The notes under the pieces are model-generated. The model ran no database searches and had not been told where the DNA came from. It saw only the letters and a program-made list of their open reading frames with translations. From assembly GCF_035083965.1 (NCBI RefSeq), contig NC_089735.1, forward strand, positions 9,884,001-9,948,000: a stretch of 64,000 bases of DNA. Reading direction: 5' to 3'. The DNA is from Branchiostoma lanceolatum. Lineage: Eukaryota > Chordata > Leptocardii > Amphioxiformes > Branchiostomatidae. Numbering within the stretch: position 1 is the stretch's first letter; the number at the start of each line of letters is the position of its first letter. This document shows positions 1 to 62,190 of the stretch, in pieces. The translations under genes and the position numbers were made by a program.

Positions 1-921
<921 letters not shown>

Positions 922-28505: not shown

Positions 28506-28563
<58 letters not shown>

Positions 28564-31500
28564 AAATGCACCATTCAGAGTGAAGCACGTCTTGACTTTA
28601 TTTCCTGCTAGTGCGATGCCAGTAAGTGTGTGAAAGCGTATAAACCAAAGGACACATAAACCCCATTCTTTGCATGAAATGACCAAAGAACAAGTTCTAA
28701 ACTATATCAAATTTGATACATCCGTCCCCTCCCCCACAAAATGTGCCATAGGAATATGAGCTAGGTATTATAATGTAAATATTTACTTACCTGTGAACTG
28801 GGAGAACCAGTTATGTCATCCCTGTTTGCTGTGAAGAGTATAGAGGTGATGCTGTAGGTGATGTCACTGTTAGTCCCATCGTCTCGATCCGTGGCCTACA
28901 TGTTCAGGAAAAATCTATATTTCTTATCATTATCATTATCATCGTTGTCGTCCTCGTTGTTATCATTATCATCGTCATCATTCTCATTACCAAAGGCTAT
29001 TATGACATATATACTACACTGCAGACACAACAAAGAATGTTTCTATGGTATGAAGCGTTAAAGTACATGTTTGACTGGGAATTTTGTACTTGATTTAAAT
29101 GACGCAAAAGATCTCACAATCACAAGAAGATTAGAAAATATAATCATACCTGAACGCGCGCCACAGGTGTGTTGAAGTTGGAGGACGCTGTCACACCTAG
29201 GGGTAACAATTATAGAATTTATCTCAAGAGGGTACGTTTGAATGAAACATTGAAATTGATATTGAACTTCAAGTTAACGCATGATTTCCTTTTAATTGGT
29301 TTCACCTGCGTAATAGACTTTCGTTGTGAATCGGGGAGCGTTGTCATTCTGGTCGTTTATGGTGATGAGTGCTTTGCTTAGGGTGTTGTCATTTGGATCA
29401 TATGCTGTAGGTCCAGTAGGGCAGGCCGTGTTCTGAAACGTAGATCAGCAATGTATCTTATGTCTTAAGAACATCTAACTTTCGAAATGTTAAGTGCCTA
29501 CTATCTAGGATATAACATTTTGGAGCATCATATATCTTAAGCGCTGTCCTCTATATCTAATCATAGTGATGTATTTGAACTTTTTAGTTACACAAGCAAA
29601 ACACAATTCCATATTTGACAATCTCAATGTAATAAAGTGATGCTGTGATACTATAAAAGAGCTTCAAGACAAATCACATTTATTACTATGTAGCAAAGCT
29701 TCGTGCAGATGTATCGTTCATAACCGTTAACTCTTTAATAAGTTGTCATTTCTTTTAGAAATATTCTGAACCGTCTATGCATCATCAAAATTAGAACTCC
29801 CACGAACCGACGGTAACTTCTGGATGACAAGGTCATACACAGCCTGCAGTTCCCGATCCAGCGGTAGGCGGTTCACTGTCACGACTCCGGTTGTTTTGTC
29901 TATGGCAAAGGTGCCGTTGGTATTGCCTCCTAAATGACAAATATCATGTAGGAAATTAAAAAGAATATCTTGATATCCGATTAGTAAACTTGAAGAAAAA
30001 TCCCAGAGTGCTATACGGGCTTAAATTATATATTAAGCAAACATTGCCGGTCTGTGAAAAAGAATATTAGGATGTTAACATTTTACATATCAAAAACAAA
30101 ATGCTGACAAGTTGTACGTACCCACAAGGCAGTAGAAGATACCGCTCTCACTGGGTCTCTTGGCGGTGCCCACGATGGTCCCAACTGGTGCGTTTTCCGT
30201 CACGTCAAGGTTGAAAACACGCCCCTCGGTTTCCTGAGCAATGAACAACACATAACGATTATCGATATCAGGTAAGTGATATCATCACTCATCCCTAAGA
30301 CTTGTAATCATATCAATACATACAAGCATATACCACAACAGATTAACAAGTAATTTCTCTCGTCAACTTAAACGCTAACTCTGTAACTTAAAAGTACGCA
30401 TCATCCGTTTTTAGCTGGCTTCGTCATGCGTGAAGAAGTCTTAGAGTTACCGGGGCGTCTTTAATGTTGACCCTTACGGTCACTGCGGAACGTCTTGAAG
30501 ATCCTCCGCCAGTGAGATGTTCCGCGGCTTGGACCTGGTAAGAAAATTATAAAGTTATATGCTGTAAAAAGATATTTGCGCTGTTGTTCAATTGGCGACA
30601 ATCATTGCCTTTTCTAAAATAAAGTGCTAATTTGGGTTTCCGTGTTATTCTAAGTGGGGGTGTTAACAAAATCTAAACTTAACAAGTCTTACCCTGATGG
30701 GGATTTGATGACTTGGGGCAGTTGTTTCAAAATCCACCATAGACGGGTCCATGACCAGAATGTTGACAATGGCTTGTCCTCCCACAACATTCTTTGGCTC
30801 GATGTCAAAAATGTTGTTCGGGTCATCTAGGAGCGTCAGGTTGAAAAGGTTGTTGGGGGTCTGTATAGAAAATGTAAAGTTGTGGTCAATTCTAGTATCA
30901 TTCTTGTAACTTTAATAATGTGAAACGGAAATGCGCTTTATATTCTACAATAGCATAGCATGTCTATGACAAAGGATGCAAAAAACAGATGCTCTACTGC
31001 AGTATAATAGAAAGCCGCCTTGAGCCTTGTATTTCCAAGACCTACCTACACACAAAATATAAATTGTAATATCATTCCATCCAGACAGATATGCGAAAAT
31101 ACAAATAGACACACAGACAGGCACACTCCAAACAATATCTCCGTTTTTATAGAGGTAGCTGCAATACGTCAAGTAGAATTGAGAATTATCATCATATTCT
31201 AAGAAAGGTGAGTTTAAAACTTACCGCATCCCTATCCGATACGGTCAGCCTCAGACGCGGCAATGGTGTGTACACCTCCGGGTGCTCAGTGATCTCCACA
31301 ATCCTCTCGGTAACTTCGTTATCGTAGTTTTGATCGTAGAACCTCGGCAGGTTGTCGTTAGCGTCTATGACGAGAACGGCCACGTTCACCTCCGAGAATT
31401 GCAGCGGGTTCGTGTCGGTACGGTCAGTCCTTACTTCGATGGCCTGTATGAATATTAACAAAACGTATCATTGTCTAACAGCATCAACTTACTTCAAACT

Positions 31501-34500
31501 GTAAACAATGAAGGCAATCTTAAAAAAACACTACGTTATAGTTTATTAAAGAAGGCTGTTGCATTTGAAGTAATATCTCTATCAAACGGACAGCCCCCGT
31601 ACTGTAGAGCAGCAATAGATGCTAATAATAATGTAGTGAGTATCTGTCTTCCGGTAAATATAGATATGCAATAAGACATATCATATTCAGAAAAAACGGC
31701 TTTCCAATAGTTTTCTTAACATATTAGCTTAAGGAATGATTTGCAATATCATCTTTCATTTAATATACGACGCAGGTAACCAAGGTACACAGGGTCAGGG
31801 GCACATAATACTTACCCGGACTCGTAGAAGAAAGAGCCCAGGAGATTCAACTCGGAAGATATTCTCTGCCTCCCTGTCGAGATCCTTCCTCAGCGTTATC
31901 CTCCCTGTGTCAGACTGGATGGTGAAATAGTTGAACGGATCTGCAACGTACAGCATCATTTTGATGACTACTCCTCCATTTTTCTTACCTCTTTCTCTTA
32001 CGATCTATCTATTTTAAGTCAGACCTAAGACCTTTCAGTCTCCAACATGTCCATGATACAATAAATATCTACAGATATACAGATATATAAATTTTGCTAA
32101 GACTTGAGTGCTGTTTTTTCTTCTTTAATAAGGCCAGTCAGGTATTCATTGTCTTAGTATTTCAGTTCAATGTGATACTATATACTAATAAGATATAGTG
32201 ACATACCTCCATTTACAAGCTCGTAACGAATTCCGTTTTCCCTTGACCGATCTCCATCGACGGCTTCAACGGTGAAAACAATGGCACCCTGACATGAGAG
32301 GGAAAACAAAAGTATCATGGATATTAATTTCTATTTTTGCAAGTATTGTATTAGCATGCGATACCCTATAGCATCTACTACCCCCCTTTCTCTCTATCTC
32401 TAAGGCAGCGTTAGTTCTTTAACTTGCCTGTAGACTTCCCGGTGTTCCCTCGGTGATGGAGACCTCGTAGGGTTCATTGAGCCAGACGGGAGCCCTGTTC
32501 TGTTCGTCTGTGATTTGCACAAACACGTCCACAGAAGTCGCTAGGGGCTGACTACCGCCATCCTGAAAATATCAGAATTCTGATTTTACAGTTCGGCTAA
32601 GATTTCACCTCTGAGTCAGTGATATCACTACTCTGTATGCTTTACCTAGTGCATTAAATGTCAATATGATGTGTATTCTATACAGTTTAAATTGTGCAAA
32701 GAATCTATTGCTATAGCCTATAAGCCCATTCGTACGTCTCGGTGGCCCTCACTTTTGACACTTGACATGCGTACTCTAATCTACTAATGGGCTTGTTAGT
32801 CTGGGAAAGCTGTTTGATTATGGTCATTATATCTAATGTATGTTAAGTGTTAACAGAACAACTTTAGAATAGACTCGTCTTACCCAAGTAAAGTATTGTA
32901 TCTTAAAGAAAAGTCATTAGACATTAGACATTAATTTGCAATAACACTGCATACAAATGCTTTGAATGATACATCGGATTCCATATTCCTAAATCTATAA
33001 CGAGCATCGTTACTCTAAGAAAAAAAACTCGATCGAAAGCAGTTTAAAACTTAGATAATGTTTCTTACCACCGCCCGGACGGTAACTGCGTACGCTGTCT
33101 GTTGTTCCGACTCGATAGCAGTCCTGTCCAGCAGCCTCAGGATACCGTCAACCTGGCCGATCTCAAACGAGTCGGTATGCTGAAAATAAAAGAAACGACA
33201 CAACAAAACAAAACAAAATTACAAGGAGGAACTGACTGATATGTGTCGATCAAAACTTTCTAATAGATGAATCATTCAAACAACTGTTGATAAGTGTAAA
33301 TATCAGTTAGCTAAAAGACATTGATGAAGTCTTTTCTTTTGTTCAATCGTGTTTTTTTTTAATGGAATTACAAATTGTTCTGTGAATGTTGCATAGCGCG
33401 AAAGTTTAAAGCTCCGATCGTACATACCGAAGTCAGTTGATAGTTGACGGCGCCATTTTGTCCGCTGTCTATGTCAGTCGCTCTCACGGTGATGATGGAG
33501 GTACCTATATCTGCATTCTAATAAATATATTTGAAAATACATATAATCAATACTTGTATGATCAATCAAAATACCTTTGGATCAATTGTTTCATTACCAC
33601 TGTAGAGAAACATTTTTGGTGTGATGACTTCGCTGTTTTGTAATATTGCAGAGTGGCAAAATGTAACAGGCGGAAGTGGTGTAATAAATATAAAGGATGC
33701 TTGTTTGAAAATTTTGTGAAGCAAATAAAAATATATAAATTTCAAACCCCAATCTATCTTTGCAAATCCAATGATGAGGGAAGTCTTACCTCGGACAGTG
33801 TAGCTTCATATGGCGTGCCTTGGAACTGAGGCGAGTTGTCGTTGTAGTCAATGACATTGATGAGAATATCAGAGTGCGTGATCTGTAAGTCAGAGATAGC
33901 ATAACATCTTTTTTTAACATATAGATATCTAGCTTTGGATATTTTTTTGCAATTTAGATAAAAATAGTCGATAAACGCAACTATTCAAGAGAAATGAGAG
34001 AGTCTGTAAAATTTAATACCGTGTGTCCGCCGAGGCCATCTGTTATTGAGACGTCAAACCTGACTACTGGGTTTGTCTGGACAAAAAAGACAAAAGACAT
34101 GAAAAAACATTTATGTGTAGCCAGTATACCTACTTAAAATCACCATGTACTAATGGATAAGATACAGAGATTGCTTCCAGACGTTTTGAGTGACATCCGT
34201 CATTCTTATTCATTATATCTAAGACCATTTTACTCTAGTGCCACTGAAGAAGGATGATGTGCGTAAACGTCTGAAGATAATCTTTGCATCAAATCATGCA
34301 GAGATTTTTCTTTGATTTTCTTCCTGGATATCTAATATTCATCATTTTCAAAGGAACATTGTTGTGATAAAGCTAAAACAATCGCCAGTTAGGAGATCAT
34401 ATAAGATAAACAAAAGCAGTAATTCAATTGAACTCATCTAGACTACAGTTCGACCATCTAGCATACATAGTGACAGAATCTTTTAGTCTTCCAGGGGATG

Positions 34501-35850
34501 TCCGTGGTTAGACTTAGACAAGAGCATATAGTATATACTCCGCCGTGAAAAACACGGAAATTAGTAAACACCAAAAAAACTATCTGAAAGAAATGATTGG
34601 AATGTAAAGCAAAATAAATCTGCTAAGATTGTACAGTAATATGTTTTTGACAAGTACAAGTTTGAGCAATCTGCGTACAAATTGGTGTTAAGATTTGTTA
34701 TATGTGTTATCTTCCAGGGCTTAACAATAAGTCGATTAAGATAGTAACCGACCTCACGGTCCAGTATCTTCGCTACTTCTAAGTCCCCCAGAGTCTCCCC
34801 CTGCGCGTTGACTCCGGCTGGGGAGATACGGAAGGTGTCCCCGCTGATGGAAAAGTCCAGGGCATTCCCGTCAGGATCATACGCACGAATCTGGAAAATG
34901 GACTCACCTATAACAAACAAACAAACAAACAATAAAACAACAACAAGTGAACAAGATGAAAGTATCCGTGTAGAATATTAATGCGACGTGTAGAATATAC
35001 AGACTCGTGCGTGTACCACATACCAGAAAACGTACTACTGACTAGAAAATATGATTGTACTTACAGCTATAAATTATGGATCTTTGCAACAAACACAATT
35101 TGGATGTTTGAGTGTTAGGAGACTACAACTTTCATACAGGACTCAAATATTATACATATGTCTGCAGATGGTGCCAGCGTCTTTAAGCTGGGCATGCATA
35201 GAATCGCATTAGATTGAATTGACTTGAACGACACCATAACAAACAGCCAATTATTAAGTTACAAACACACAGAAATATGCAACGTTTGAAAAATATGAAA
35301 AAAGTAAGGCCCCGAGTTTAAAAGTAAAATGCATTATAATCACATGTTGTCAATAGATATTTCCTTACCAACAGGTGTGTTCTCGGAAACTAGCATGTTG
35401 TTCAGGTCACCTATGTTGCGAAACTCTGGTGCAGTAGCAGCCACTGCGATATAAATAAATCACGTATAACAACTGGTATTGCCGATGAAAAATTAGCCAC
35501 TTCAATGTATGCAGTAGTTATATTAGACAATTCAAAACGATACAGAAAATGGTCTCTTCAAATGTGGAAAAAGGAGATTTTTTAAATGATTTCAAAGCGT
35601 AGGTGCAGTAACAACCACTGTGGTATAGATAAATGACATATAACATACGGTATTGCCGATAAAAAGTTGACCCTTAAATGTATGTAGTAATTCTATCAAG
35701 CTGTTCAAAACGATACAGATTATGGTTATCTTCAAATGTGTAAAAAAGGAGATTTAGAAAATGATCTCGAAGTGTATTGTTATGCTTCTGATACATACTT
35801 GTGGTGCCTATGCCGGCCAGTAGGAGAAGAATGCATTTTCCCTCTAACAT
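20764..35850 (-). CDS. Gene B: six-repeat CDHR2-like transmembrane cadherin (30 coding exons, 1010 aa)
   Basis: Thirty coding exons sum to 3033 nt in one uninterrupted frame. The start is the ATG at 35848-35850 (MLEGKCILLLLAGIGTT signal peptide) and the stop is TGA at 20764-20766. Approximate domains: EC1 22-131, EC2 132-238, EC3 239-360, EC4 361-485, EC5 486-595, EC6 596-700, membrane-adjacent 701-802, helix 819-841, tail 842-1010. Every intron phase equals that of gene A and most exon lengths match, so the two are tandem duplicates. Two introns appear to use GC donors (after exons 8 and 28). The tail ends NSRL, a class I PDZ ligand. The likely role is cell-surface adhesion anchored to a PDZ scaffold. 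CDHR2 kinship is by motif memory; a search could favour another non-classical cadherin. Confidence 0.9.
21180..21256. repeat. Hairpin in the last gene B intron
   Basis: TAATGGTTGCTGG and AAGACCGTATCCAAC are mirrored by GTTGGATATGGTCTTC and CCAGCAACCATTA around a 17-nt loop. A small fold-back element. Confidence 0.65.
21495..21630. mobile_element. Hairpin MITE family 1, copy 1
   Basis: It opens CTCCAAGCAGAGGTTGG and closes with an inverted copy (AATCTTCTCC...AGTGCTTGG), with about 40-bp inverted ends. It sits immediately downstream of gene B exon 29 in transcript direction. A second copy opens with the same bases at 50.54 kb. Confidence 0.65.
23077..23217. repeat. GC-rich palindrome in a gene B intron
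   Basis: The arms are about 65 bp. The left has AATACAACACG...ATCACCC and GGGTCGGATCGCC. The right has GGCGATCCGACCC and GGGTGAT...CGTGTTGTATT. It is far more GC-rich than its surroundings and lies between exons 28 and 27. The preceding 280 bp may belong to the same insertion, because they hold another inverted pair (GTGTGATAACT and AGTGTTATCACAC). Confidence 0.7.
24540..25130. repeat. Tandem repeat of about 130 bp (four to five diverged units)
   Basis: Each unit starts near ATGCTAATGAGGACCTCATTT (starts about 24545, 24668, 24800, 24938 and 25066) and continues GCATAATTTATGCAG, CTTCATATTTCC and ATGTCATA. Copies are 70-85% alike by eye. It lies in the intron between gene B exons 26 and 25. 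Related sequence recurs at 60.75-61.06 kb and 63.2-63.45 kb. Confidence 0.7.
25907..27917 (-). CDS. Gene B coding exons 20-24: membrane-adjacent domain and transmembrane helix
   Basis: Exons: 27829-27917, 27518-27604, 26978-27046, 26689-26749, 25907-26031. The membrane-adjacent domain reads IQECLQRLEDQTGYRVIY, then SQVLYYLIDKNTDLVL. The transmembrane exon begins SAQVKSDYAGFSNWEAF and ends CLLCYCRYW. The phase-0 intron just upstream of it is the point at which gene C departs from this architecture. Confidence 0.88.
26110..26300 (+). mobile_element. Dispersed non-coding repeat, copy 1 (gene B intron)
   Basis: Landmarks are AGCAGTGTGTTCGAG, TTGGTTTGGAGATCTATTTGGACG and GGTGGCGGAACTATG. They match the reverse complement of 45.89-46.09 kb over about 190 bp, with an internal gap. 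I recognise no terminal repeats or coding sequence, so it is an unclassified non-autonomous element. Confidence 0.65.
28147..30233 (-). CDS. Gene B coding exons 14-19: EC5 and EC6
   Basis: Exons: 30122-30233, 29808-29929, 29306-29432, 29150-29196, 28791-28895, 28147-28287. EC5 begins FNLDVTENAPVGTIVG and has LPLDRELQAVYDLVI. Its linker to EC6 is canonical (NDQNDNAPRF). EC6 has ATDRDDGTNSDITYSITS and RAEDGGGSFDDTEVR. Exons 15+16 total 249 nt and exons 18+19 total 246 nt, the exact lengths of single exons in gene C. Confidence 0.88.
28490..28563. repeat. (GATT)n microsatellite
   Basis: About 16 almost perfect TTGA/GATT units in a gene B intron. Confidence 0.9.
28920..28990. repeat. ATC/ATT-rich trinucleotide microsatellite
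   Basis: Degenerate CATTAT/CATCGT units start 25 bp upstream (transcript sense) of gene B exon 18. Confidence 0.75.
30451..32288 (-). CDS. Gene B coding exons 9-13: EC3 and EC4
   Basis: Exons: 32207-32288, 31816-31940, 31225-31443, 30693-30860, 30451-30534. EC3 holds AVDGDRSRENGIRYELV and LDREAENIF, and ends in IDANDNLPRF. EC4 holds TVSDRDA, NNIFDIEPKNVVGGQAIV and DPSMVDFET. It ends VRVNIKDAP without an NDN motif, as in genes A and C. Confidence 0.88.
32428..35850 (-). CDS. Gene B coding exons 1-8: signal peptide, EC1, EC2 and start of EC3
   Basis: Exons: 35799-35850, 35369-35443, 34753-34907, 34020-34076, 33790-33882, 33428-33517, 33069-33179, 32428-32562. The transcript probably enters exon 1 at 35870, just after an acceptor AG. 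EC1 has ENTPVGESIFQIRAYDPDG and LDRE. The EC1-EC2 linker is canonical (DYNDNSPQF). The EC2-EC3 linker is degenerate (TDEQNRAPVW). Exon 8 ends SLQ followed by GCAAGT, a GC donor. Taking the next GT would break the alignment with gene A. Confidence 0.88.
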
Positions 35851-39761: not shown

Positions 39762-42434
39762 CTAGCATTTCGCCTCCGGCATGTTGTTAAGTATGTCCAC
39801 GTATTTGTCCACGGCAGTCGATACTTTGATCTGCTCCAGTAGTCTGGCGAGATGTTTAAAGCTGGGGCGTTTGTTGGGATCCTTGTTCCAACAGACCAGC
39901 ATTGTCTTGTAGCTGCAAAATGAGAACAATGTTAAAACCAAATGTATCTCTTCCATAAAATAAAAAAGGCACTTACACAGCAGCGACCACATGTAATAAG
40001 TGTGATAATCCTTTTTGGCAACTATACTTCATAAAAATGATTAAAATTATACAACAATTGTAAAAGATACAACCTACTGTAACTTCTATCACTTGACAAT
40101 TTTCAGAGACTAAGCTACTTTTACAGTCTTTGGTGCAAGTTCTAACACTTAGGGTATTCTCATTTGCTGTCCTACGTTTGCAATGTATGGATGGTCAATG
40201 TATTCTAAGTACATCTTTTATGCACTGAGGTGAGTTCTAATATAGAAGACGACAGGAAACGTTATATGGTGTATTACGCATATCAGAATGTATATTTATG
40301 ATATTGGGGAAAATCAACGCACATTCGAGTTGGGCACTCTTCCGGTTTGCGCAGGCGCCGATCGCTCAGAAGGTAGTCCGCCATGTCGTAGATGTCTACA
40401 TCCGGGTACGGAGGGACTCCACGCGTCATCAGTTCCCATAGCAACACACCAAACGCCCACTGAATAATGTCAAGAGGTAAAGAATTCCTTTTAAACTTTT
40501 ACCGAAAATCTTCAAGAATGTCCATCAACTTAATTACTTTATCTGTCGTTTGTGAGAAGTTTCCCCATGGTTTTAATTGTAACCGCTTGTAATGTTCTGA
40601 CATTTCAAGTCTGAGGAATGTAGATTTAATATATTCAATAGATAATAATACAATGCTAAACTTTCTTCCAACACTAAGGTATTCACGGATCGAATTTTCG
40701 ACGACCACTGTCGCCTTCTTCATGATCAATAATTATCAATCACTGCCGAATTTAAACTCGCGAGAGTTACGGACACGTGACTTTATTGACACGTGTCATT
40801 GCGGATACGTGACGTCAGCAATTGGTCAAACGTGCCAGGAAGTTTATAACGCCCACTGTCCCTGTTATTTACATGTTCAGTGATGGCTGGAGTGCCCTGA
40901 AGTGTATGGCCTCCTTTATACCTCTCATCAAGTAGTCCTGCTTAGTGTCCACATAACGATATTACCCTTCTGATAGTAAAATATTTGCCCCTACCACGTC
41001 TGTTTTTGTGTTGAAGACGTTATGCGTGAGGCTCTCTATCGCCATCCACTTGACGGGCAGTGCCGGCCCGCCCTCGCGACTGGTGTAGTAATCATGTTCG
41101 TAGATGTCTCTGGATAGGCCGAAGTCACCGATTTTCACAATGCCGTACTCATCAATCCTACATTGTTTGGTAAAGAGAGTATTAAAACTGATAAGGAGTA
41201 AATGATATGCGTGATACTGTAGCATAGTCTACTTATAATGAAATATAATATTTGTTGTATTCATGTTTTGTCGTAGGTACCAACACACCCCGGGAATATC
41301 TCTTGGTGTTTCAGTAAAGCTATGGAGTTGAACAAACATTTCTGTTTGATACACTGCATATTTTGTGGGGAAAGATTAAAAAAATCATAGCATCAATTTT
41401 CTATTCTTGTTTGCATATTTCCTATCAAGCTAAAAGTATTTCTAGAAATGTTATCTTTTTCAGTTCTCAGAAAGACAGTACATATAATTCGGAACATAGA
41501 TATAGATGACAATGCAAACTCACATGCAGTTTCTGGCCGCAAGATCTCTATGTACATACTTCATACCGCCGAGGTACGACATGCCTTCGGCTATCTGCTG
41601 CCCGAAGTCAATCAAATCCTTTGTTGTAATGTCCTTTGGCAAGCAAGAAAAAGAGTTAGAATTACATTACAGAATGCATCTAAGATCTAAGAAAAGTTTA
41701 AAAGGTTACAATTTCCCATTGTTAGCACAAAAGAAAATGAGGGCGACTTCATAAATCATTTGCAATATTTGACACAATATTGAATACAAATATGACGAAC
41801 ACTGCAGGGTGCTGATTGATTTGTGCTATAAATGACAAACAAATCCCGCTACAGAAGAGGCAAAAATATGTGGATATACAAGAGATATTTACCTTTCCCG
41901 AATCCCTAATGAAATTCAGAAGGTCGCCGTTTTTCATGTAAGGAATGATGATCATGGGCGGTTCTCCCTGATGTAGACAGATGCCGACAAGTCCCAGCAC
42001 GTTCCTGTGGTTAAACTGCCTCATCATGATCCCTTCCCTCAAAAACGTGTTCAGATTCTGCCTGTTACCTAACAAAGAGACGAGACATGGCCGTAAGAAA
42101 CTGCTACTGCATAGTCTAAGTTTCCCCAAGTATGCAAATTAGAAACATGCAAATAAACACATGGCTATGTATTATGATTATAATCTTGTCTATACTGCTT
42201 TATCCTCTTACTCATGTTGCATTTGTAACACCCAACTTTATTCTAATACACTTTAAATTGTATCATGACCATACTTTGAACATGGCTTCGCAAAACAACT
42301 TTTCACAACAACCAATTGACAAAATAATTCAGAAACATTTGTGGCATTGTCAGTTCATTGCTTACCTTGTAATGTCTTCACAGCTACTTCAACTTGCGTT
42401 TTCAGGGTCCCCTTTAGCACTTGACCAAAATTTC
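39762..42434 (-). CDS. Gene C coding exons 17-22: tyrosine kinase domain
   Basis: Exons: 42366-42434, 41893-42068, 41524-41633, 40995-41157, 40323-40459, 39762-39912. Exon 17 carries GNFGQV and the catalytic Lys; 18 the alphaC Glu and hinge ([12 protein letters not shown]); 19 HRDLAARN; 20 DFG and the activation loop; 21 [14 protein letters not shown]; 22 [12 protein letters not shown] and the C-terminus. The first Gly of the nucleotide loop is Ala (FAKGNFG instead of LGxGxFG). The tail after the kinase is very short and ends [14 protein letters not shown]. One YVDI motif (Tyr1018) occupies the place of the two-tyrosine docking site of MET. Confidence 0.9.
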
Positions 42435-45400
42435 CTATCAGAGAAATAGAATTCCGTTATCATAAGGAATGATACAATCGACTGCCTTCAGTGTTTCAGA
42501 ATGCAACATTCTATCATTAAGGGTATTGGGAACGAGACGTGAAACCTTTAGTTACATGTACGAGACCAGTGTTGCTAGGGGGAACGTCAAAATGGCCGCC
42601 CACCGTTAAAAAACATCTATGGCAAATCAAAATGACCTTTTGCAAAGACGGGTCCAAGTTTCAGCCATTTCCGTTCTATGAGGACATCATTGACAGAGCA
42701 GGCGATGTCTTCGTCCACTCCTGAGAACAGCGGCTCTTCATAATGATCCTCTTTTGACAGGACTTTGAACTCTAACGGCCCTTCAGCGTTGTCACCATGT
42801 TGCCGTAGATCGTTGACCCCATTGTCCACGTCTGTAAGAATGAAATTTACTTTTTGAGTTTTCAACACTTACTTACAATGTTCAAAAATATTTGAATCAA
42901 GAATGGTTTGTAAAACAATATCGCCTATCTATTTCTGTTCAAATGACGGATGATATGTGCGGAGATTTCAACAGAATTACCAAATGCGTTCAGTCAAACC
43001 TGTCTACAGAGTGACCACAAGAGGTTTTTAAAAATCGTCGAAGTAGGTAGGTAGCCGCTATAGACAGCATTCGTAATGCTTAGGTCAATAAAAAGACAAT
43101 CTAAGTGACTATCAAATGTTTTTGAATGGCCGGGCCTTCCATACCGAAAGGTAGTCACTAATATAGGCATGATAATTCTACAGAAATGCAATACTGAATT
43201 TGCAGACGAATTCACAGTTGCCGTAAACATTGCATAAGAAATCAACATGCATTTTAAAAACAATATCAGTCCATCTCAGAATGTTTGAATTAAAATTCAG
43301 AGTTAAAAGAAATAAGTACATACCAGGAGGAAAGATCCGTGGTCTATTCTTGCCATGTCTACTTCTGGTCCCCCACGTCCTCCTGATAGTTGATCCCCGT
43401 CTCTCCACGCTCCTCAGCCGCTCCGTTGTGGGGATGTTTCTCGGTTGAGCCGCTAGAGAAGACGTGCGGTAGCGTTTCGGTGGGTTTTTCCTGTACCTAC
43501 AGCACACTATGACCAGTGCGGTGAAAGTAGCGGTGAACAGGACTGCTCCAACAAGGGATATGATCAAGATGGGGACTCCAACGGTGAGGTCAGTCCATGA
43601 GCTGGATTCTGGAGATGCCTAATAATGATAAATCGATGTAATATGATATGATATGATATGACATGATATGAAATGATACAAAGTGCATAGTATGGCAAGT
43701 TTAAGTAACATCTTTGTGATATTTCTAGGAAACTTACATGTTTTAAACACAGTAAAAATATTCTAAAATGATTCAAAATTACTGAAGTACTTTACATACT
43801 AGGAAAAAACCCCTAAAGATTATGTCTTGTATTCGATATTGTGAAGTATCTATGTTTTGATCTTACTTTCAAAAGCCTGCAGAAGTGGATATCTATAGGA
43901 GTTGTGCATTCATGAGTTTTCATAACATTTTCAGTTAGATAATTTCGCAGGACGTTACAGACCAACGTGGCGTCAATCACAACATTAGTGCTACAAAGGA
44001 CGAGAATCCGTTACCTTTAAAACAGCTAGATCACTGCACCCTTGTTGTAAAATACTGCTGTTAAGAATGCTGAAAAAAAATGAATTGAAGGAACTCATTA
44101 CTTACTACTGTACTATTACATCAAGTTTCATGTAAAAGTAAAGTCTCATGTTCATAGTATCGTGCCATTGATAGAAAAGACTCTAAGCATATATAATATA
44201 CTAACCTGGAGGTGCATCGAGAATCACAAATGATGTTTTCGTCTGTTTTTACCACGTAAACGTCCAGTTTCAGTCTGTCTGGGGGGTCCGCTCTCATACC
44301 GACTATATGTACTGCTGCATTTGATGCATTAAATACCTCGCTATTGGAATTAATAGAATGAAAAATCACTTATTATTTTGGTATATAAGTGTTGCATTGC
44401 ATAAATGTAAGTCATTAATGATATTTAGTTCTCATCATCATAATATTAAGTGCTGTTTAGTAAAAACATTGAATCAGCATTATAATGGTTCATCAGCTCT
44501 AAAAACAGATCTTTATTTCATATACATGCTCAAGGGGGTAAATACACAGATGATCACATGTGGAGGCAAAACACTATTGTGTAGTACCATTACATTCTCA
44601 ATTGTTGATCTTGTTTGGAAAATCAAGTACACGTAGTTATGAAAAATTGGCAATTAAAAACTTACCCTACACAGGATGGCATGTATGGTGTGTGACTCGA
44701 CAACACCGTTAGAGTTACGAACTGATCTCTCTTAACGACGTAAATCTGAAAGAAAATACAACATAATGAATGTTAAAATCTTTACCTGCATGTAAAATCC
44801 TATGGAACATGATTTGCATACCATTAAGTTTTTTGTTCACTTGGAGGATTCGATAGTATTTTATTTCAACTTAAAAACTAAACTTATCTCCTTTTAACAT
44901 CACACAACCCACACATTGCAGAAAAAGTTGCATCATTCGTCTTCCACTGTCTCGGAAAAAAACTCGCTAAGTTAGAATTTAGTGTCAGTATTTAGACTAG
45001 AATAGTTACATGTTATATTGTTACCCATTGTCTGTCCTGTTCGTCCTTTCATGATACATGTATTTGCAATTAGCCTACGGGCAATAAACTTGCCATTAAA
45101 AGTAAACAAGTGTCATATGAAATTATGACTCACATTAATCTGCATCGTGTCAAAAAGCCCTCCACCGTCTCTTGCTCGCATTACAACTTCAAAATGGCCG
45201 TCCAGGTAGCTGTCAAATAACGTGGCTGTGGTGACAGCGCCGTCTTCCGACCTGACGAGAAATGCACCTTCTACGAACATGTTCGCCACCGGTCGGCTGT
45301 TCTTCGACCTCGGACGAAACAGGATGCTGTCTACACTGTACTGGATAGCCCCGTTCGCTTCAACATCCGCGTCAGTAGCCTGAGGAAATCATTGATTTAA

Positions 45401-48400
45401 AAACACCATCTCTAAATCTAACGGGCATTTTGACGTTTCCCATTGCATGCTGGGAGACGCGTTGCACTATGGGTAGCTCGGGGAAAAACCAACATCCATA
45501 CTAGCTATGACACCCCGTGTGTGGTGCACGAAGACTACGCTCGGATCGTCTATGTTTTCATGGTAAATGGTTTTGTTTGCCCACAAAGCTACCCATAATA
45601 CCCCGCGTCTAACATGCAATGGAATCCAAGAATAGGTCTATGATCATTTTGAAATGCAAACCGATGATAAAATGTTGGTTTATTAATATTATTTGCAAGT
45701 TAAAAATAAAATCTAATGGCTTACCTTCAATTTTGTAATTGACGTCTGGTAAGGTGTATCTTCTTCCACGACTATATACGAGTACAGAGAAAAACAAAAC
45801 AATACGTATTGTGTTACTGAAAAGTGGCTTCCAATTGAGAAAATATCCAAGTTCGTAGACGCAAACAACAGTTCACAGTTTGTCATTTTAATCTAGTAAC
45901 ATTATTCCACCAAGGTCCATAATTACGCCACCGTGGAAAGATATGTCCAAACAGATCTCCAACCCAACGGACTGGAGTATAATGCATTCCTGTATATCTA
46001 AACAAACCTGGCGGTGGGAGGGGGGGTGCGGTTGCGCCACTGGAGATCTCTCAAACACACTGTTTTTCAATCTGGCGGATTTATGCTACCCGACGGATTA
46101 GTGTTGAAGAAAGTTACTTCAAATTGAGGAAAAAGTGACGACATAAGACTGCCTACCTACCCAGATATTTGTGAATTTCATCAAACTGTGGAGAATTGTC
46201 GTTCACATCCTCCACTTCAACTATGACCTTTAACAGGCTTTCATCGTGTTCGTTGAAGGGCGTGTTGACATTTGGAACCAGGTAATCTGCCGCCCGGGTT
46301 CTCTTGACAACAAGCGTGTAGGATGACTTCCGTTCTCTGTCTAGTGCATTGATGACACTGGTCTCACCGGTACGTTTATCCAGACGAAAAGTGTTGTCAT
46401 TATCACCTCCTGAAAAGAAAGAGATAAAGCAAATGGTAAGATCGTTTGCGGAGGGATTCTAATAGAAATAGTATATTCTCTGTCTGCACATGCTACATAA
46501 AGTAGCCGTTTGGCACATAAGTTTCTATAGGTTATAGAGTTAGGCAATAGGCAGAAGGCAAGCTATTGGAGGCCGGGAGCTTTACCTACATGACGTATTT
46601 CCTACGTCAACAGCTATCTGCCAAAGACAAATCAAGAACATAGCAGTACCATCTCCTACAGTAGCTAGAAAAGGGACTAGTAGGGCCAAAGTTTCACTTT
46701 CAATACATAGCAACATCTTAAATATTGCCGAAATTGAATTATTCTCTTGTATATGTCACAGTAGAGTACATTAGCAAAACTATGCGGAGACACAAACAAA
46801 TACATTAAAACACAAAAAAGTACTTCTTACACAGAGATAACGGGAGAAATCAAGGCTTTATTGCATCAAGTCACAGTCTTGCCTATCACATAATCCTTTT
46901 TTATATCGCTACTGATTTAATCAGTTTCCACAACTTACCAACGATATAAAAGAATATGTAGTTGTCTCCCGGCCGCCGTACAGTTCCTACCACAGTCGCT
47001 GATCTGACATTTTCCCGGACATCCAAAAGAAACATGGCGTCTTCCTGTAGGCATAAAAGAATAAGAGTCGCAATGGCATGGCTTGGAATGAAAATGTAAT
47101 CATAAGGGAAAATATAAATGTGGAACAAATTTGAGAAATATTAGATACAACATACGGGTACGTCCTGTACATGGACGGTTATTTCGGTGACAGCCGTGTA
47201 TGCCTGGGGTGTTCTTGACTCCGTTGCCTGTATCTGAGAGAGAAAAGGAATCATAACTCAAAGGAAAAGAACTGCATGTACCGTGTGGTATTAGAATGTT
47301 GTTTAGCCCTACGTTACTATATGTGTATGTCTGATAGCAATCTGGGAATGCAATAAACAGAATCTTAGAAGTGCCTTTGGCGGTGAGCAACCGCCTTATA
47401 TCTAATGAATATACATTGTCGCAGTGAGTATTATCCTCCCACGCCAGGCCCACTGCTTTTGTATGTCAAACAACAACGCAGGCGTACCGGCTGCGTTCAG
47501 TCCTTTTTGATGCGTTAGCCTTTGTAAAAACATTCTGTCCCTACAGCTGACTCAGAAATGGGAGAGAATGTGTGAGTGAGCGAGCCTATGGTAAGCCACC
47601 ACCAGCTGTCAATCACGTGCACGCTGCAGTCCACTGTCAAGAGGCAACGTGATTGGTTGGTAACTTATCTTCCAACAACAGGAAGGGAAGTGTCTGATTG
47701 GCTGACAGCTGTAGGCTAACGCAGCGAGAAGAACGCAGCCCGTTACTCAAGGGTGGTTGCTTAACATACAGAAGTGGTGGCCTGGCATGAGAAGCTAGTG
47801 TTACATATATGTGCAATTAGCGTTATATTTGAAACATCGTGTTATGTTATCATATCATCAGTAGACACTTACCAGAAAGCGCAGGATTTTTTCAGGTTTC
47901 TCCAGAGTTTCGTAGTCCAGTGCAGGTGGATCCACAACGAATATGCTGACTGTGGCTGCTCCACCCAACACTAACTTGGGCTCCACGTCAAAAACAGACG
48001 CGTCATCTCCTAACAGTCTTAGCCTGAACTCACTGTTTGTGCCCTAGGCATATATCAATAAATTACATTAATAGTAATTACATTTACGCCCATGTCAATG
48101 AAAGAAGAACCATATATAAGCTATGTGCATCAGGATCCATAAAACTTCAGTTAACCGGGACGGGGGCCTCTACATAATACCAACTCCCTTTAGCCCGCTG
48201 TTCACGTCACGCTTGAGGCAAGTGTTTCGAGCAACCTGGTCCTTATCTAATAATATGCTAAAAGAACTGGTTACGCAAATCTTTGTATTTTACGTTAGAA
48301 CATTGATTAAGTTTTTGATAATAATCTCAGATTTTGATAACATCAATGCTAGCAATAATAGCACAATATAGCATAACTATTCATACATGTATGATGCTTC

Positions 48401-50733
48401 TCATTCAAAATTTTTCCATCTCTTTCAACTAATGCAAATTACAGTAAAAAATCATCAGTTCATTCTTTGTGTTTATAAGACATTATTGTCCGTTAAGGCA
48501 TTTGGAATTGGTACAGCTTGCGTCATCAAAATGGTGGCTGCTCGCTGGTTGGCTACCGCCATTTCGTTGACGTAGGTTTAAATTTGACTAATATTAAGTG
48601 CTTTACCTGATCTGCGTCCGAAACCGTCATCTGCAGACCTGTAACAGGAGTGCGTACGGCCGCGTGCTCGGAGATACTGGCGCTGTAGGACTGTCTGTTA
48701 AACGTTGGTCTATTGTCGTTGACGTCAAGGACCGTAATCTGAACAGTTGTCGTCACACTCAAAGTACTGTTCAACAGTATCTCTTCTACCTGTTGCATAC
48801 AAAGCAATAGAAAAGATTAACAAAACAAACGTTCTGCTGCAATACCGAGGAAAGTTGCCAGGGTGCCAAAGACGGCGCAATGTCATTGGTTGGCTGAGGT
48901 CTAACTACCTAGCAAATTCCCTGGCAATCCAGCCAAATCGTGTTGAGCTATGGTCTTCAAACAAAACCACGCATTGTTGGCAAAGGTTATTACCTATTGT
49001 GCAGCATATGTAACTTATAGTTTGATGCTGTTTACATCTAACTACCAGTGGCTTGTTTGTGTAACTTTTAGAGGTATACGTTGTTACAAACTATTAGATA
49101 GCGGCCTACAATTTCAACGCAAATGCAACATAAACAGAGTCAGAACAAAATAGATGTTGATGCTAACTAATTCTACTTTTTGAAGAGCGCGATAGTGAAT
49201 TGCATATCATTTGAAACATAAAATGGTGAATTTCATCAAGTGGACTTTCGTACCTGAATGGTAAGGTTTATAACCCTAGGTGCTGATTTGTCGCCGACGC
49301 CAGCCTCTCTGTCTATAACAGATGATGTTGTGATGACGCCAGTTGTTTCGTTTACTTTGAAAAGAGCTTGTTGATCTGTAATATAACATGTTAAAAGATG
49401 AATGCTTGTGGTTACTCAACACGAAATGTACATCTACTGTGCCTTTATGTAGTTTGTCATAGTGTGTTCATCATTCATTGTATTTTCCTTTTTTGGCGAC
49501 GCCTCAAGAGTTTCTTTGTTCTTTAAACGTAGACTTACCGTTGTGTACGATAGAGTACTGGATTCTGCTGGAATGGGGACTGCCTGAAGTCGTAACCTGC
49601 ATCACTGTAGTACCCTGCATATACAGAGTTATCAAAATAGACTTGTTTGTTAGGGTGCTCGTGCATGCTTGAATAAATAATACTATAGCATAACTTCAGA
49701 CATGGATGACATATTTTCTTTAATTCCAAATAAGCCATAGAATTATGAAAGTAGTGCATGTAATACATTTCATTTAAGACTTACAGATCGATTATTTGTG
49801 AATTTATCGAAGATTCATGTAGATTATTTCTTGTATCAATCTACTAGCACATAGTGTTCAAATTTCAAACATCCATTCTCACCATCGCAATGTTGCTCAT
49901 TGAAACAAGACTAACTACAGTACAGGCATCCTCAAAAGTTAGCTCTAAGCAATTCCTAAAGTTTCATGTGCACACCTAATAAGGTGTGGCGGGTCTTTCG
50001 GTATAATATGTACCGCTGCCACCGCGTGCAAGGCTAAGTTACGCCGTAGGGCAGTTTTAGCGACTATACACAATACAGATTTGAATAGATACCGGGATAC
50101 AGTAATATGAGGGAGTTATAGAGCGGCCATTATTGATGGTTATAACGTACCACGTCAGCGTTTTCGGACACAACTGCGAAGTAGGGCTCATGAAGAAATG
50201 ATACGGCAGGGGTCTGTGACGTTGTTAAAGTTGGCGTAGCTGTTTCAAAAGTTCCCGTGGGTGACGGTGAAATAGCACCAACTGTACAATGTGCAAGACA
50301 ATTAGAAAGAGTTAGAAAATATTTTAACTTTCACAGGCATTGCCTGGGAGTGAAGGTGAAAGACATACAGAGCAAACGAAACACCATACTTAAGTACTAC
50401 ATTATACCTGAAACGTCTCAAATTACATTGTAGCTTGATGATATAATTATCTCTATCATCAATAGAAACAGATAGGAAATTCATTTAAATTCAAGGTCAT
50501 TTGCAGCAATGGCAATCGAGTATCGGCACGTATACCTTGCGCTCCAAGCAGAGGTTGGTTGAGAAGATTGTAACCTTTTTATCAAAAAGGTCAGAATCTT
50601 CTAGCTTCTAGCTATCAAATAAGCAAAAGACTTACGTATACAGTATTACTGAAAATGCAGTGTAGAATAATTACATACCTGTACATACTCCGATGCACAC
50701 GATAATGGCTGCCAAAGATCTTGCCCCTTCCAT
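39762..50733 (-). CDS. Gene C: cadherin-repeat receptor tyrosine kinase (22 coding exons, 1030 aa)
   Basis: Twenty-two exons sum to 3093 nt in one frame, from ATG 50731-50733 to TAG 39762-39764. Order: signal peptide; Ser/Thr-rich linker (about residues 19-48); four EC repeats (about 33-486) equivalent to EC3-EC6 of A and B; membrane-adjacent domain (487-599); helix (about 612-639); basic juxtamembrane region; tyrosine kinase (about 753-1010). Kinase landmarks: catalytic Lys782 (VAVK), alphaC Glu797, HRDLAARN with Asp874, DFG 892-894, activation-loop tyrosines 900, 904 and 905 (DIYEHDYY), LPVKWMA. The core resembles MET/RON and AXL ([36 protein letters not shown]). It is probably an active receptor kinase driven by cell contact. 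Drosophila Cad96Ca is another cadherin kinase, but its kinase is nearer RET/FGFR, so convergence is possible. Confidence 0.9.
42637..43618 (-). CDS. Gene C coding exons 15-16: transmembrane helix and juxtamembrane region
   Basis: Exons: 43324-43618 and 42637-42831. Exon 15 starts [20 protein letters not shown], crosses the membrane, ends the helix at VIVCCRYRK and continues with an Arg/Lys-rich juxtamembrane segment. It has nothing in common with the transmembrane exon of A and B. Exon 16 is acidic ([19 protein letters not shown]) and ends with the first kinase strand, [10 protein letters not shown]. Confidence 0.88.
43630..43685. repeat. GATAT/ATGAT simple repeat
   Basis: Ten or so imperfect TATGA units lie beside the acceptor of gene C exon 15. 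Confidence 0.75.
43867..46409 (-). CDS. Gene C coding exons 9-14: EC5-, EC6-like repeats and membrane-adjacent domain
   Basis: Exons: 46161-46409, 45725-45771, 45134-45379, 44666-44745, 44206-44340, 43867-43990. Exon 9 (249 nt) equals gene B exons 15+16 and exon 11 (246 nt) equals exons 18+19 to the base, so two introns differ between the paralogues. The linker is canonical ([11 protein letters not shown]). The membrane-adjacent part has six or more cysteines (for example [20 protein letters not shown]) that A and B lack, so extra disulfides are likely. Exon 14 ends in phase 0. Confidence 0.87.
45438..45622. mobile_element. MITE with roughly 38-bp inverted ends (gene C intron)
   Basis: The left end has CCATTGCATG, GAGACGCG and ATGGGTAGCT. 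The right end has AGCTACCCAT, CGCGTCT and CATGCAATGG. The 100 bp between are non-coding. It lies between gene C exons 11 and 10. Confidence 0.7.
45893..46087 (-). mobile_element. Dispersed non-coding repeat, copy 2 (gene C intron, opposite orientation)
   Basis: Its reverse complement aligns with 26.11-26.30 kb (landmarks AACAGTGTGTTTGAG, GGGTTGGAGATCTGTTTGGAC). It carries a GC-rich insertion that the first copy lacks. Confidence 0.65.
46939..50733 (-). CDS. Gene C coding exons 1-8: signal peptide, mucin-like linker, EC3-, EC4- and start of EC5-like repeats
   Basis: Exons: 50679-50733, 50151-50281, 49539-49614, 49254-49375, 48607-48789, 47873-48043, 47156-47227, 46939-47044. Exon 1 encodes [19 protein letters not shown]; a possible acceptor at 50806-50807 marks its upstream edge. 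Exon 2 joins a Ser/Thr/Pro-rich stretch ([20 protein letters not shown]) to [14 protein letters not shown], the equivalent of the first EC3 strand in gene B. EC1 and EC2 are therefore absent. The first linker is canonical ([10 protein letters not shown]). The second is degenerate (VQDVPEDAMF), as in A and B. The CDHR2-like run [19 protein letters not shown] is kept. Confidence 0.88.
47484..47746. mobile_element. MITE with roughly 35-bp inverted ends (gene C intron)
   Basis: The left end has GTACCGGCTGCGTTC and TGCGTTAGCCT. The right end has AGGCTAACGCA and GAACGCAGCCCGTTAC. The 263-bp element has no frame and lies between gene C exons 7 and 6. Confidence 0.65.
50542..50605. mobile_element. 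Hairpin MITE family 1, copy 2
   Basis: It begins CTCCAAGCAGAGGTTGGTTG like the copy at 21.5 kb, then folds back (AAGATTGTAACCTTTTT versus AAAAAGGTCAGAATCTT). It lies in the first intron of gene C. Confidence 0.6.
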
Positions 50734-59693: not shown

Positions 59694-59937
59694 GTAAGTG
59701 TGTCTTTATTTGTTTGTTTGTTTGTTTGTTTGAACTTTGCTTCTTCGTTAGTAGCTCAAATCGGCATGCAGGTCGTTTTTCATTGGAGCAAACAGGTCAA
59801 AGTATTTGTATCTATATAGCTGGTACATTGTATATCCTTCGGCGCAACACAACATCTTCACAGGAACGCGGCGCTAGGCAGCTGGTTATATTGTACCGAA
59901 CGACCTGTCACATCAAGATCTACCCTTTGCAAATCTA

Positions 59938-60127
59938 CACTGCACGAAATGGCCTCGTATCCCGGCGTATACGTACAGGGATTCCTCCGGAAATATTCCA
60001 TATCCCGGTGCGGATTTAGCGTATCCGTTAAAACTAACGGAAACGCTAAATCCGCACCGGGATATGGAATATTTCCGGAGGAATCCCTGTACGTATACGC
60101 CGGGATACGAGGCCATTTCGTGCAGTG
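59938..60127. repeat. 190-bp near-perfect palindrome
   Basis: Two 93-bp arms (59938-60030 and 60035-60127) are exact reverse complements except for one position near the apex, around a 4-nt AAAC loop. Both strands show nearly the same frame (MASYPGVYVQGFLRKYS) because of this symmetry; it is not coding evidence. Confidence 0.95.
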
Positions 60128-60744
60128 CTAACTGCATGCTTTGTTCAAAGCTATCTAATGACGATGCCTCTACAGTACTTGACGGTACTAACGAGTTCTA
60201 GGAAAATACGAATGTTTAAACACATCAATCCCAGGTTGACAAGCAGGACATAAGCCGTTCATTTGTTTGCAGTATTTTTAGAATATGTTGTTATCAAACA
60301 ACTCCAGTCTATACATTGCGTGGATAAAACTTATTTTACCCTTGAGGCCAATTTGTACGGTGTATGGCATTACAGACTGTCCTTAAATGCTACATGGCAA
60401 CAATCGGTTGTGGATATATATATCGGTACTGATTCTTTGGGGCTCATGTAGATATGCTGTACTTTGCGCTGCAAAGCGGACATTTTATAGTCAATGTTAA
60501 TTTCGTTCAATTAAAATGCTTCGATAGATGACATTAGAATCGTATATAATATCATATTACTAGGATAAAAATTATAAACCATCGAATATTATGTTGAACT
60601 AGAGTTCCACGACCTCATACCTTCGCCAAATGATTGTAACCTTTATGACTGATGTATTTAGGAGTGTTTCTCATCAATCATAAACCATACCAGTTGATCG
60701 CCTTCACCCAAATAACAGAAGTTGTCCAAAGTATGAGCTTATCA

Positions 60745-61060
60745 AAGAAGGCTATGCTAACATTTATCATTAATTATGCAAATTAGGTCCTTATTAGCAT
60801 AATTTGATTCAAGTATGATATTGCCATCATTTACCTGTAACTTACGCCTACAATTGCATATCTTCTATCTATTAACATTCCTCTCTTCCTCAGCTACAAA
60901 TGTCACATATTTGAATAGTCATCTCATGGAACACAGCGGGTTTTTAAAATTGTCTCCTTAGTTATGCGAATTAGAATCTGATTTGCATAATGCGCAGAAT
61001 CTGATTTGCATAATCATGGTCCAATCATACTTAAGCTATCTACATACCAAAAACCATGAC
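60745..61060. repeat. Dispersed repeat, left flank of the minisatellite
   Basis: ATTAATTATGCAAATTAGG, TATGTCAC-type, TGATTTGCATAAT and CTATCTACATACCA blocks occur in the same order at 63.2-63.45 kb, and partly in the 24.5-25.1 kb array. Confidence 0.6.
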
Positions 61061-61084
61061 CATCCATCAAGCCCATCTTGAGTT

Positions 61085-62190
61085 ACGTTTGACGAACGCT
61101 TCTGAACGTCTTGAACGACCAGGAACGTTGTTCATTGCGACGACCAGGAACGCCCGATTCCAAATCTTCCAAATCTTCAAAATCCTCCGGAAATTTCAAA
61201 TCTTCAAAATCTTCAGAATCTTCCAGATCTTCCAGAAATTTCGGATATTCCGGAAATTCCGGAATTCCGGATATTCCGGAAATTCCGGATATTCCGGATA
61301 TTCAGGATATTCGGGATATTCCGGAAATTCCGAAAATTCCGAATATTCCGAAAATTCCGGAAATTCCGGATATTCGAAATCTTCCAAACGTTTTTGGTTT
61401 TTGGTGAAATCTTCCAAATCTTATTTTTGCTTTATTGGTATCATAACTTCATGTTTACTACAGAAAATAAGGCAATTTGTTGGCATGATTAGCCAGTTGT
61501 ATCAGAGAATCAAAGTTTTTGTGGGAAAGAAATATGCTGTTGTCATCGGCAAATAGCATAGAATAACGTATGTTCTGTTGACGTTTGACGTTTGACGAAC
61601 GCTTCTGAACGTCTTGAACGACCAGGAACGTCGTTCATTGCGACGACCAGGAACGCCCGATTCCAAATCTTCCAAATCTTCAAAATCCTCCGGAAATTCC
61701 AAATCTTCAAAATCTCCAGAATCTTCCAGATCTTCCAGAAATTTCGGATTTTCCGGATATCCCGGAAATTCCGGATATTCCGGAAATTCCGGATATTCCG
61801 GATATTCCGGAAATTCCGGATATTCCGGATATTCCGGACCGGATATTCCGGAAATTCCGGATATTCCGGAAATTCCGGATATTCCGGATATTCCGGATAT
61901 TCTGGATATTCCGGAAATTCCGGATATTCCGGATATTCCGAAAATTCCGGATATTCCGAAAATTCCGGATATTCCGGAAATTCTAAATCTTCCAAACGTT
62001 TTTGGTTTTTGGTGAAATCTTCCAAATCTTCCAAATCTTATTTTTGCTTTATTGGTATCATAACTTCATCTTTACTACAGAAAATAAGGCAATTTTTGTT
62101 GGCTTGATTAGCCAGAGAATAAAAGTTTTTGTGGGAAAGAAATACGCTGTTGTCATCGGCAAATAGCATAGAATAACGTATTGTTCTGTT
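61085..62190. repeat. Duplicated unit containing a 9-bp minisatellite (GGATATTCC/GGAAATTCC)
   Basis: Two copies of a 0.5-0.6 kb unit start at TTTGACGAACGCTTCTGAACG (61088 and 61591) and end at GAATAACGTAT. Each holds a core of 9-bp units (ATTCCGGAT/ATTCCGGAA) at about 61240-61375 and 61740-61985; the second core is longer. The flanks (CTTCCAAATCTT units, TTTTTGCTTTATTGGTATC) are nearly identical. Because 9 is a multiple of 3, several frames stay open on both strands. Confidence 0.85.

Follow-up and report, generated by a model that had tools for sequence, protein, structure and literature searches.

A predicted receptor tyrosine kinase with a cadherin-type ectodomain and a MET/AXL-group kinase lies beside two tandem cadherin genes in the lancelet Branchiostoma lanceolatum

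The window that we analyzed, a 64-kb stretch of Branchiostoma lanceolatum DNA, contains three genes, here called A, B and C, which lie in tandem and are all encoded on the minus strand. Gene A (3801..16630) is a cadherin gene of 30 exons whose 997-aa product (P0145) has six cadherin repeats and no kinase. Its tandem paralogue, gene B (20773..35850), encodes about 1002 aa in a homology model of 32 exons, which is provisional because two of the exons are only 8 and 2 bases long. No protein answering to gene B was recognized among the 120 matches listed in the ectodomain-relative search, so that gene B, though it has a full open model, may be absent from public sets or wrongly annotated there. 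Gene C, a cadherin receptor kinase gene with a coding span of 39762..50733, was modeled manually, exon by exon. It has 22 exons, all introns are GT-AG, and a single open frame runs from ATG to TAG. A sequence-only reading of this DNA had described 22 exons in one continuous frame of 1030 aa; the exons and the frame stand, but the protein is 1009 aa long. Its spliced product is letter-identical to P0001, a public B. lanceolatum "uncharacterized protein". Chance assembly of the gene C exons is ruled out by the single frame, the identity to P0001 and the introns that gene C has in common with A and B.

Elsewhere in the window, a Ser/Lys-rich open frame of 306 codons on the plus strand (1..918) runs off the left edge and is probably the end of another gene. 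Long open frames that encode simple repeats (for example PEIPDIPDIP) occupy both strands at 61035..62104, which looks like a minisatellite. At about 59820..60198, open frames of both strands encode nearly the same peptide, suggesting an inverted repeat that may belong to a mobile element.

In the gene C protein a signal peptide is followed by four cadherin repeats, a membrane-adjacent domain (MAD), a single helix and a tyrosine kinase. The signal peptide, called by eye, is encoded by exon 1 (50679..50733; 55 bases, ending in phase 1). Pfam, the exon table and the introns in common with A and B place the four repeats (about residues 47-490) in exons 2-11 (45134..50281), and the predicted fold and structural matches place the MAD (about residues 489-581) in exons 12-14 (44015..44745). 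Intron 14 (43619..44014, phase 0) separates these from exon 15 (43324..43618), which, according to the exon model, alignment and predicted structure, encodes the membrane helix and a basic juxtamembrane stretch and is longer than the corresponding exon in A or B. Exons 16-22 (39762..42831) encode further juxtamembrane sequence, a MET-group kinase and a short tail, as assigned with Pfam, a PDB sequence search and trees. Pfam scored four cadherin stretches at 122.9 bits (cut-off 28.8) and one tyrosine kinase at 297.9 bits, and the predicted structure has one membrane helix, at residues 592-622. This anatomy, like the common introns and the kinase group described below, is a computed result. All features of a receptor tyrosine kinase lie within one predicted polypeptide, from signal peptide and ectodomain through a single helix to an intracellular kinase, and this one gene model predicts a genuine receptor of that kind in Branchiostoma.

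Three further lancelet records correspond to parts or all of gene C. P0002 (B. belcheri, 965 aa) has the same domain order as the gene C protein, with 80% identity over residues 300-1009 and 78% over residues 45-640. P0003 (B. belcheri, 559 aa) runs from the fourth repeat through the MAD and helix to a complete kinase. These two records come from contigs of differing length and both span the MAD, helix and kinase, and the exon-15 stretch is conserved in each (84 of 99 residues in P0002, 85 of 99 in P0003). Two kinase stretches of P0003 are absent from P0002, which looks like a model fault in the latter. The third record counts against the one-gene reading: P0238, a model from the genome of a B. 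floridae x B. japonicum hybrid, has its initial methionine within exon 15 and is without an ectodomain. It groups with lanceolatum (100/83 in a tree of 48 rows, 100/79 in a tree of 47) and, because it is like lanceolatum, probably represents the B. floridae side. P0238 is either a truncated model or the product of a lineage in which the ectodomain was lost or uncoupled.

The ectodomain introns tie gene C to its neighbors. In a three-way alignment, 13 of the 14 ectodomain introns of gene C matched both A and B in column and phase. The remaining one follows the signal-peptide exon and was not paired by the aligner with an intron of A or B; all three genes nonetheless have an exon 1 with a phase-1 end (55 bases in C, 52 in A and 52 in B). 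When the 11 introns that lie past column 300 were placed at random, matches averaged 0.42 and never reached 11 in 20,000 draws. Sequence similarity around the MAD is too weak to fix the exact columns of three introns there, which therefore lean on the aligner, and the series of intron phases in this region is the same in gene C as in A and B with one intron missing. Two introns inside repeats are also absent from gene C: its exon 9 (249 bases) corresponds to 119+127 bases in A, and its exon 11 (246 bases) to 105+141. The final intron common to all three genes is in phase 0 and lies directly before the membrane exon. Over 628 aligned positions gene C and gene A are 32% identical.

Because the introns coincide in column and phase, gene C can be read as a duplicate of its neighbors with an exchanged tail, and because intron 14 is the last one in common with A and B, the joint lies at this intron or downstream of it. 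The best explanation, which we hold with moderate confidence, is that gene C is a tandem cadherin copy without the two tip repeats, in which MET-group kinase exons have replaced the cytoplasmic tail; the order of these events is one that we infer. Lancelets are reported to shuffle exons at a high rate (PMC4284660). The kinase protein P0002 and the A-type protein P0182 share the longest-contig figure 24254466, which suggests that linkage between the kinase gene and an A-type gene has been kept in B. belcheri.

The predicted structure of gene C has a strand-helix-strand-strand-helix-strand fold at residues 482-581. The best solved folds matching the ectodomain were PCDH15 EC9/EC10-MAD12 and CDH23 EC25-MAD28; five listed PCDH15/CDH23 structural matches extended to residues 582-592, and 6c14 to residue 624, the scope of these matches being such that the model is barely tested outside residues 46-495. 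The fold model was built from an alignment in which five of 13 rows were CDH23, and it is usable for the ectodomain only, with pLDDT mostly under 40 in the intracellular half. Sequence-profile comparison gave no match between the MAD of gene C and those of A, CDH23 and CDHR2 (probabilities 0.2 to 4.8%), and 43% for the MAD of A against that of CDH23.

Among 234 proteins compared, gene B not being one of them, four amphioxus A-type proteins matched the whole gene C ectodomain at 205-244 bits and the next protein at 102. A-type proteins were likewise the best matches for each of repeats 2 to 4; for repeat 1 they were not, and the MAD alone had no match among the 234. CDHR2 (P0234), among the matches listed, scored best of the named vertebrate proteins for EC2 and for EC4 and tied with CDH23 for EC4-MAD (35.9 and 36.0 bits), and for the whole ectodomain it fell outside the top 8. 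The ectodomain of gene C is of the CDH23/PCDH15/CDHR type, with cadherin repeats followed by a MAD; we do not assign it specifically to CDHR2, for which the matches are mixed. The sequence-only reading had called it CDHR2-type; CDHR2 is one among several comparable vertebrate matches, and the nearest relatives are the two neighboring cadherin genes.

In the three-way alignment nothing in gene C answers to the two most N-terminal repeats of A and B, a statement of homology to A and not to CDHR2. The CDH23 and PCDH15 handshake is reported to be made by EC1-2, and the smallest mutually binding pieces of CDHR2 and CDHR5 are EC1 or EC1-2 (PMC8691648). Because gene C lacks the pair of tip repeats that A and B have, and so has none answering to the trans-contact part in CDH23/PCDH15 and CDHR2/CDHR5, a proposed link to microvillar-type adhesion is weakened, and the usual EC1-2 handshake is not to be expected. 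Action of gene C in cis, beside A or B, is possible.

The kinase domain of gene C contains the catalytic lysine K761, HRDLAARN at 851-858, DFG at 871-873 and an activation-loop YY at 883-884. Its P-loop has alanine in place of the first glycine (AKGNFG, 740-745), as seen in P0001, P0003 and P0238. Thus, of the earlier description of four cadherin repeats, MAD, helix and a kinase with all catalytic motifs, the layout is borne out but the complete motif set is not. The juxtamembrane tyrosine Y707 lies in YEEP, kept in P0002 and P0003 and changed to YEQP in P0238, and the tail tyrosine Y997 lies in YVDI; both YVDI and the activation-loop YY are conserved in P0002, P0003 and P0238. Conservation is highest in the kinase domain, where 243 of 252 residues agree between P0001 and P0003. 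Its branch is long, at 0.81 in a tree of 33 rows and 0.73 in that of 48 rows.

A PDB sequence search with this kinase gave, among the best 60 of 2526, human MET at 294 bits, RON at 275, MER at 243, AXL at 227, RET at 221 and ABL1 at 220; the top row, an EGFR chain at 309 bits, consists of two kinase copies of 154 bits each. In the 33-row tree the gene C kinase fell inside a MET-type clade (98/95), with AXL and MER outside, and a MET-type clade including it was recovered at 84/91 with 48 rows and 95/92 with 47. The two larger trees were built without six rows of the 33-row tree (SRMS, Argiope MET, one Xenopus RON, Glandiceps, Maylandia and Dinothrombium MET) and the 47-row tree also without a C. 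briggsae kinase; the first forced-union test was run without SRMS. The Cad96Ca row used in both forced-union tests is a provisional, unverified sequence.

Membership in RET was rejected (forced union with RET alone, p 2.4e-97, 47 rows), as was membership in Cad96Ca with this provisional sequence (p 2.5e-101 in the first test and 9.4e-4 with 47 rows). Forced union with RET, FGFR1, TIE2 and Cad96Ca together gave p 0.016 in the first test and 0.062, unrejected, with 47 rows. Also unrejected were unions with AXL/MER (p 0.096 in the first test, 0.072 with 47 rows) and with amphioxus MET, P0107 (p 0.247 and 0.223, respectively), as well as trees in which the gene C kinase was left out of a clade of the MET-type rows (p 0.289, 47 rows) or of the Sema-type METs (p 0.548, first test); together these results single out no one donor gene for the kinase. 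Bit scores and trees agree that the gene C kinase belongs to the MET/AXL group, as the sequence-only reading had it, and within that group it is likely of MET type: the kinase phylogeny that the reading had proposed excluded RET and Cad96Ca and favored MET, but left the AXL/MER union unrejected (p 0.07-0.10). A pairing of the gene C kinase with that of P0008 reached 95/82 with 48 rows and 73/28 with 47; we do not claim it, because support fell after one long row was dropped and the pairing was absent from the 33-row tree.

Our protein searches covered lengths of 0.55-1.75 times the query, with just under 8000 candidates scored in each and the best 120 listed. In a search with 1433 significant proteins, cadherin and kinase Pfam domains occurred together in 2 of the 120 listed (P0001 and P0002). 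The same two of 120 had both domains in a search with 445 significant proteins, where a kinase was present only in P0001-P0003, and in a search with 2363 significant proteins cadherin repeats were found in none of the 120 listed. Among the matches listed, the architecture is apparently limited to Branchiostoma, in keeping with the suggestion that it is lineage-specific, and one hybrid-genome model (P0238) is without the ectodomain; cadherin-kinase proteins of other lengths or lower ranks may exist elsewhere. Receptor kinases with cadherin-type repeats, RET and Cad96Ca, are already known. The cadherin domains of RET are described in PMC8662651, and Met-LP is a MET-type kinase with another ectodomain (PMC6374515). 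The union of cadherin repeats with a MET-type kinase was not found in open-licence literature, represented mostly by titles and the starts of abstracts; the amphioxus survey of D'Aniello et al. 2008 may cover gene C.

Other records join MET-type kinases to varied ectodomains. In P0008 (B. belcheri, 1474 aa), as judged by Pfam and a tree, a MET-type kinase is joined within one model to integrin-alpha FG-GAP and Ig-like domains and to an integrin-beta VWA domain; the protein may reflect a second exchange of ectodomain or a faulty model. P0336, P0338 and P0350 are Branchiostoma Ig-domain proteins with a kinase; the kinases of P0336 and P0338 fall with the MET-type rows in the 48-row tree, and the domains of P0336 were assigned by Pfam. 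P0349 (B. lanceolatum, 600 aa, named MET) has a MET/AXL-like kinase behind FN3 and a weak CARD-like match below the Pfam cut-off. In P0271, P0282, P0285 and P0310, all of them short, a Gla domain is combined with a MET-type kinase; P0271 and P0285 are from tunicates.

The membrane-near unit of PCDH15 has a role as a cis-dimer, and by analogy the MAD may dimerize the gene C receptor. Through the membrane-near unit of gene C, the four repeats and MAD would keep one receptor next to another, or next to the product of A or B, and cis-dimerization would drive autophosphorylation. Contact, ligand or calcium could alter receptor packing. The activation-loop pair Y883/Y884 would be trans-phosphorylated, as in MET, and the juxtamembrane YEEP (Y707) and tail YVDI (Y997) might recruit SH2 proteins. 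In such a scheme cell contact may switch on growth-factor-style signaling.

A quite improbable alternative is that gene C is a prediction fusion of a cadherin gene ending before exon 15 with a separate MET-like kinase gene. Published work reports a high error rate in lancelet gene models (PMC4967905) and judges all echinoderm CDH23 models except LvCDH23 to be wrong fusions (PMC10734073), and P0238 is a kinase model without ectodomain. However, exon 15 bears the membrane helix and has in-frame joins on both sides, P0002 and P0003 both cross MAD, helix and kinase on contigs of differing length, and a kinase beginning at exon 16 would be without signal peptide or helix. We keep a small share of our belief for a fusion because lancelet domain novelties have been attributed to gene-prediction errors (PMC4967905). 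It is somewhat less improbable, if still unlikely, that the receptor is genuine but that its kinase, instead of belonging to the MET family proper, came from the side of AXL and MER or from the MET/AXL stem. The unrejected AXL/MER union and the unrejected MET-type clade without gene C would allow this, whereas the higher score of MET over MER and AXL and the MET-type clade recovered with gene C in all three trees argue for MET.

RET uses its cadherin-like domains for ligand. Gene C might similarly be an ordinary ligand-driven receptor whose repeats bind a soluble or matrix ligand with no sensing of adhesion, and we regard this as doubtful to the same degree as an AXL/MER-side origin of the kinase: with the two tip repeats gone, cadherin-style trans adhesion is without its usual site (PMC8691648), but the MAD and most introns have been retained from adhesion-type cadherins. 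Very improbable is a catalytically weak kinase in what would mainly be an adhesion or scaffold protein; the P-loop alanine and the long kinase branch would fit such a protein, but K761, HRD, DFG and YY are intact and the kinase is the domain best conserved between P0001 and P0003.

We prefer to see gene C as a tandem cadherin duplicate with an exchanged tail. Gene C would then be a further, independent union of cadherin repeats with a tyrosine kinase, beside RET and Cad96Ca and here with a MET-group kinase. Because its ectodomain relatives adjoin it with matching introns, the steps by which a new receptor was built can be followed across its exons. More speculatively, and only as a tentative proposal, the MET-group kinase of invertebrate chordates could be a traveling cassette (combined with adhesion-type ectodomains that are unrelated to one another: Sema-IPT, integrin alpha/beta, Ig, Gla and tip-link-type cadherin), and gene C could be a receptor gated by adhesion or tension, with its kinase dimerization governed by a MAD clamp instead of a soluble growth factor and with A and B serving as cis partners or ligands. 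Gene C offers a test case for the MAD as a dimerization switch of a receptor kinase and for the freedom of MET-type kinases to swap partners, and it bears on the dispute over whether domain innovations in lancelets are genuine or the product of faulty annotation.

Compared with known systems, gene C resembles MET and RON, including amphioxus MET (P0107), in its kinase core, its place in the MET-type clade, its activation-loop YY and its PYPDV motif. Unlike MET, which has a Sema/PSI/IPT ectodomain, it has cadherin repeats and a MAD, with no Sema/PSI/IPT domains detected by Pfam. The MET tail carries a two-tyrosine docking site, for which gene C has one counterpart, YVDI. With CDH23, PCDH15 and CDHR2 (PCDH24) it has in common repeats followed by a MAD near the membrane, the fold matches being CDH23 EC25-MAD28 and PCDH15 EC10-MAD12, but it has only four repeats, and its cytoplasmic part is a kinase, not the usual tail. 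Amphioxus A and B are alike to gene C in 13 of 14 ectodomain introns, in strand and in their adjoining loci, whereas A differs in its six repeats, in having no kinase and in the low identity given above. RET and insect Cad96Ca (Stitcher) are, like gene C, receptor kinases with cadherin-type repeats, but their kinases are of another group. Met-LP, the integrin-type P0008, the Ig-type P0336 and the tunicate Gla-type P0271 and P0285 likewise carry a MET-type kinase under a non-standard ectodomain; unlike gene C, none of them has cadherin repeats.
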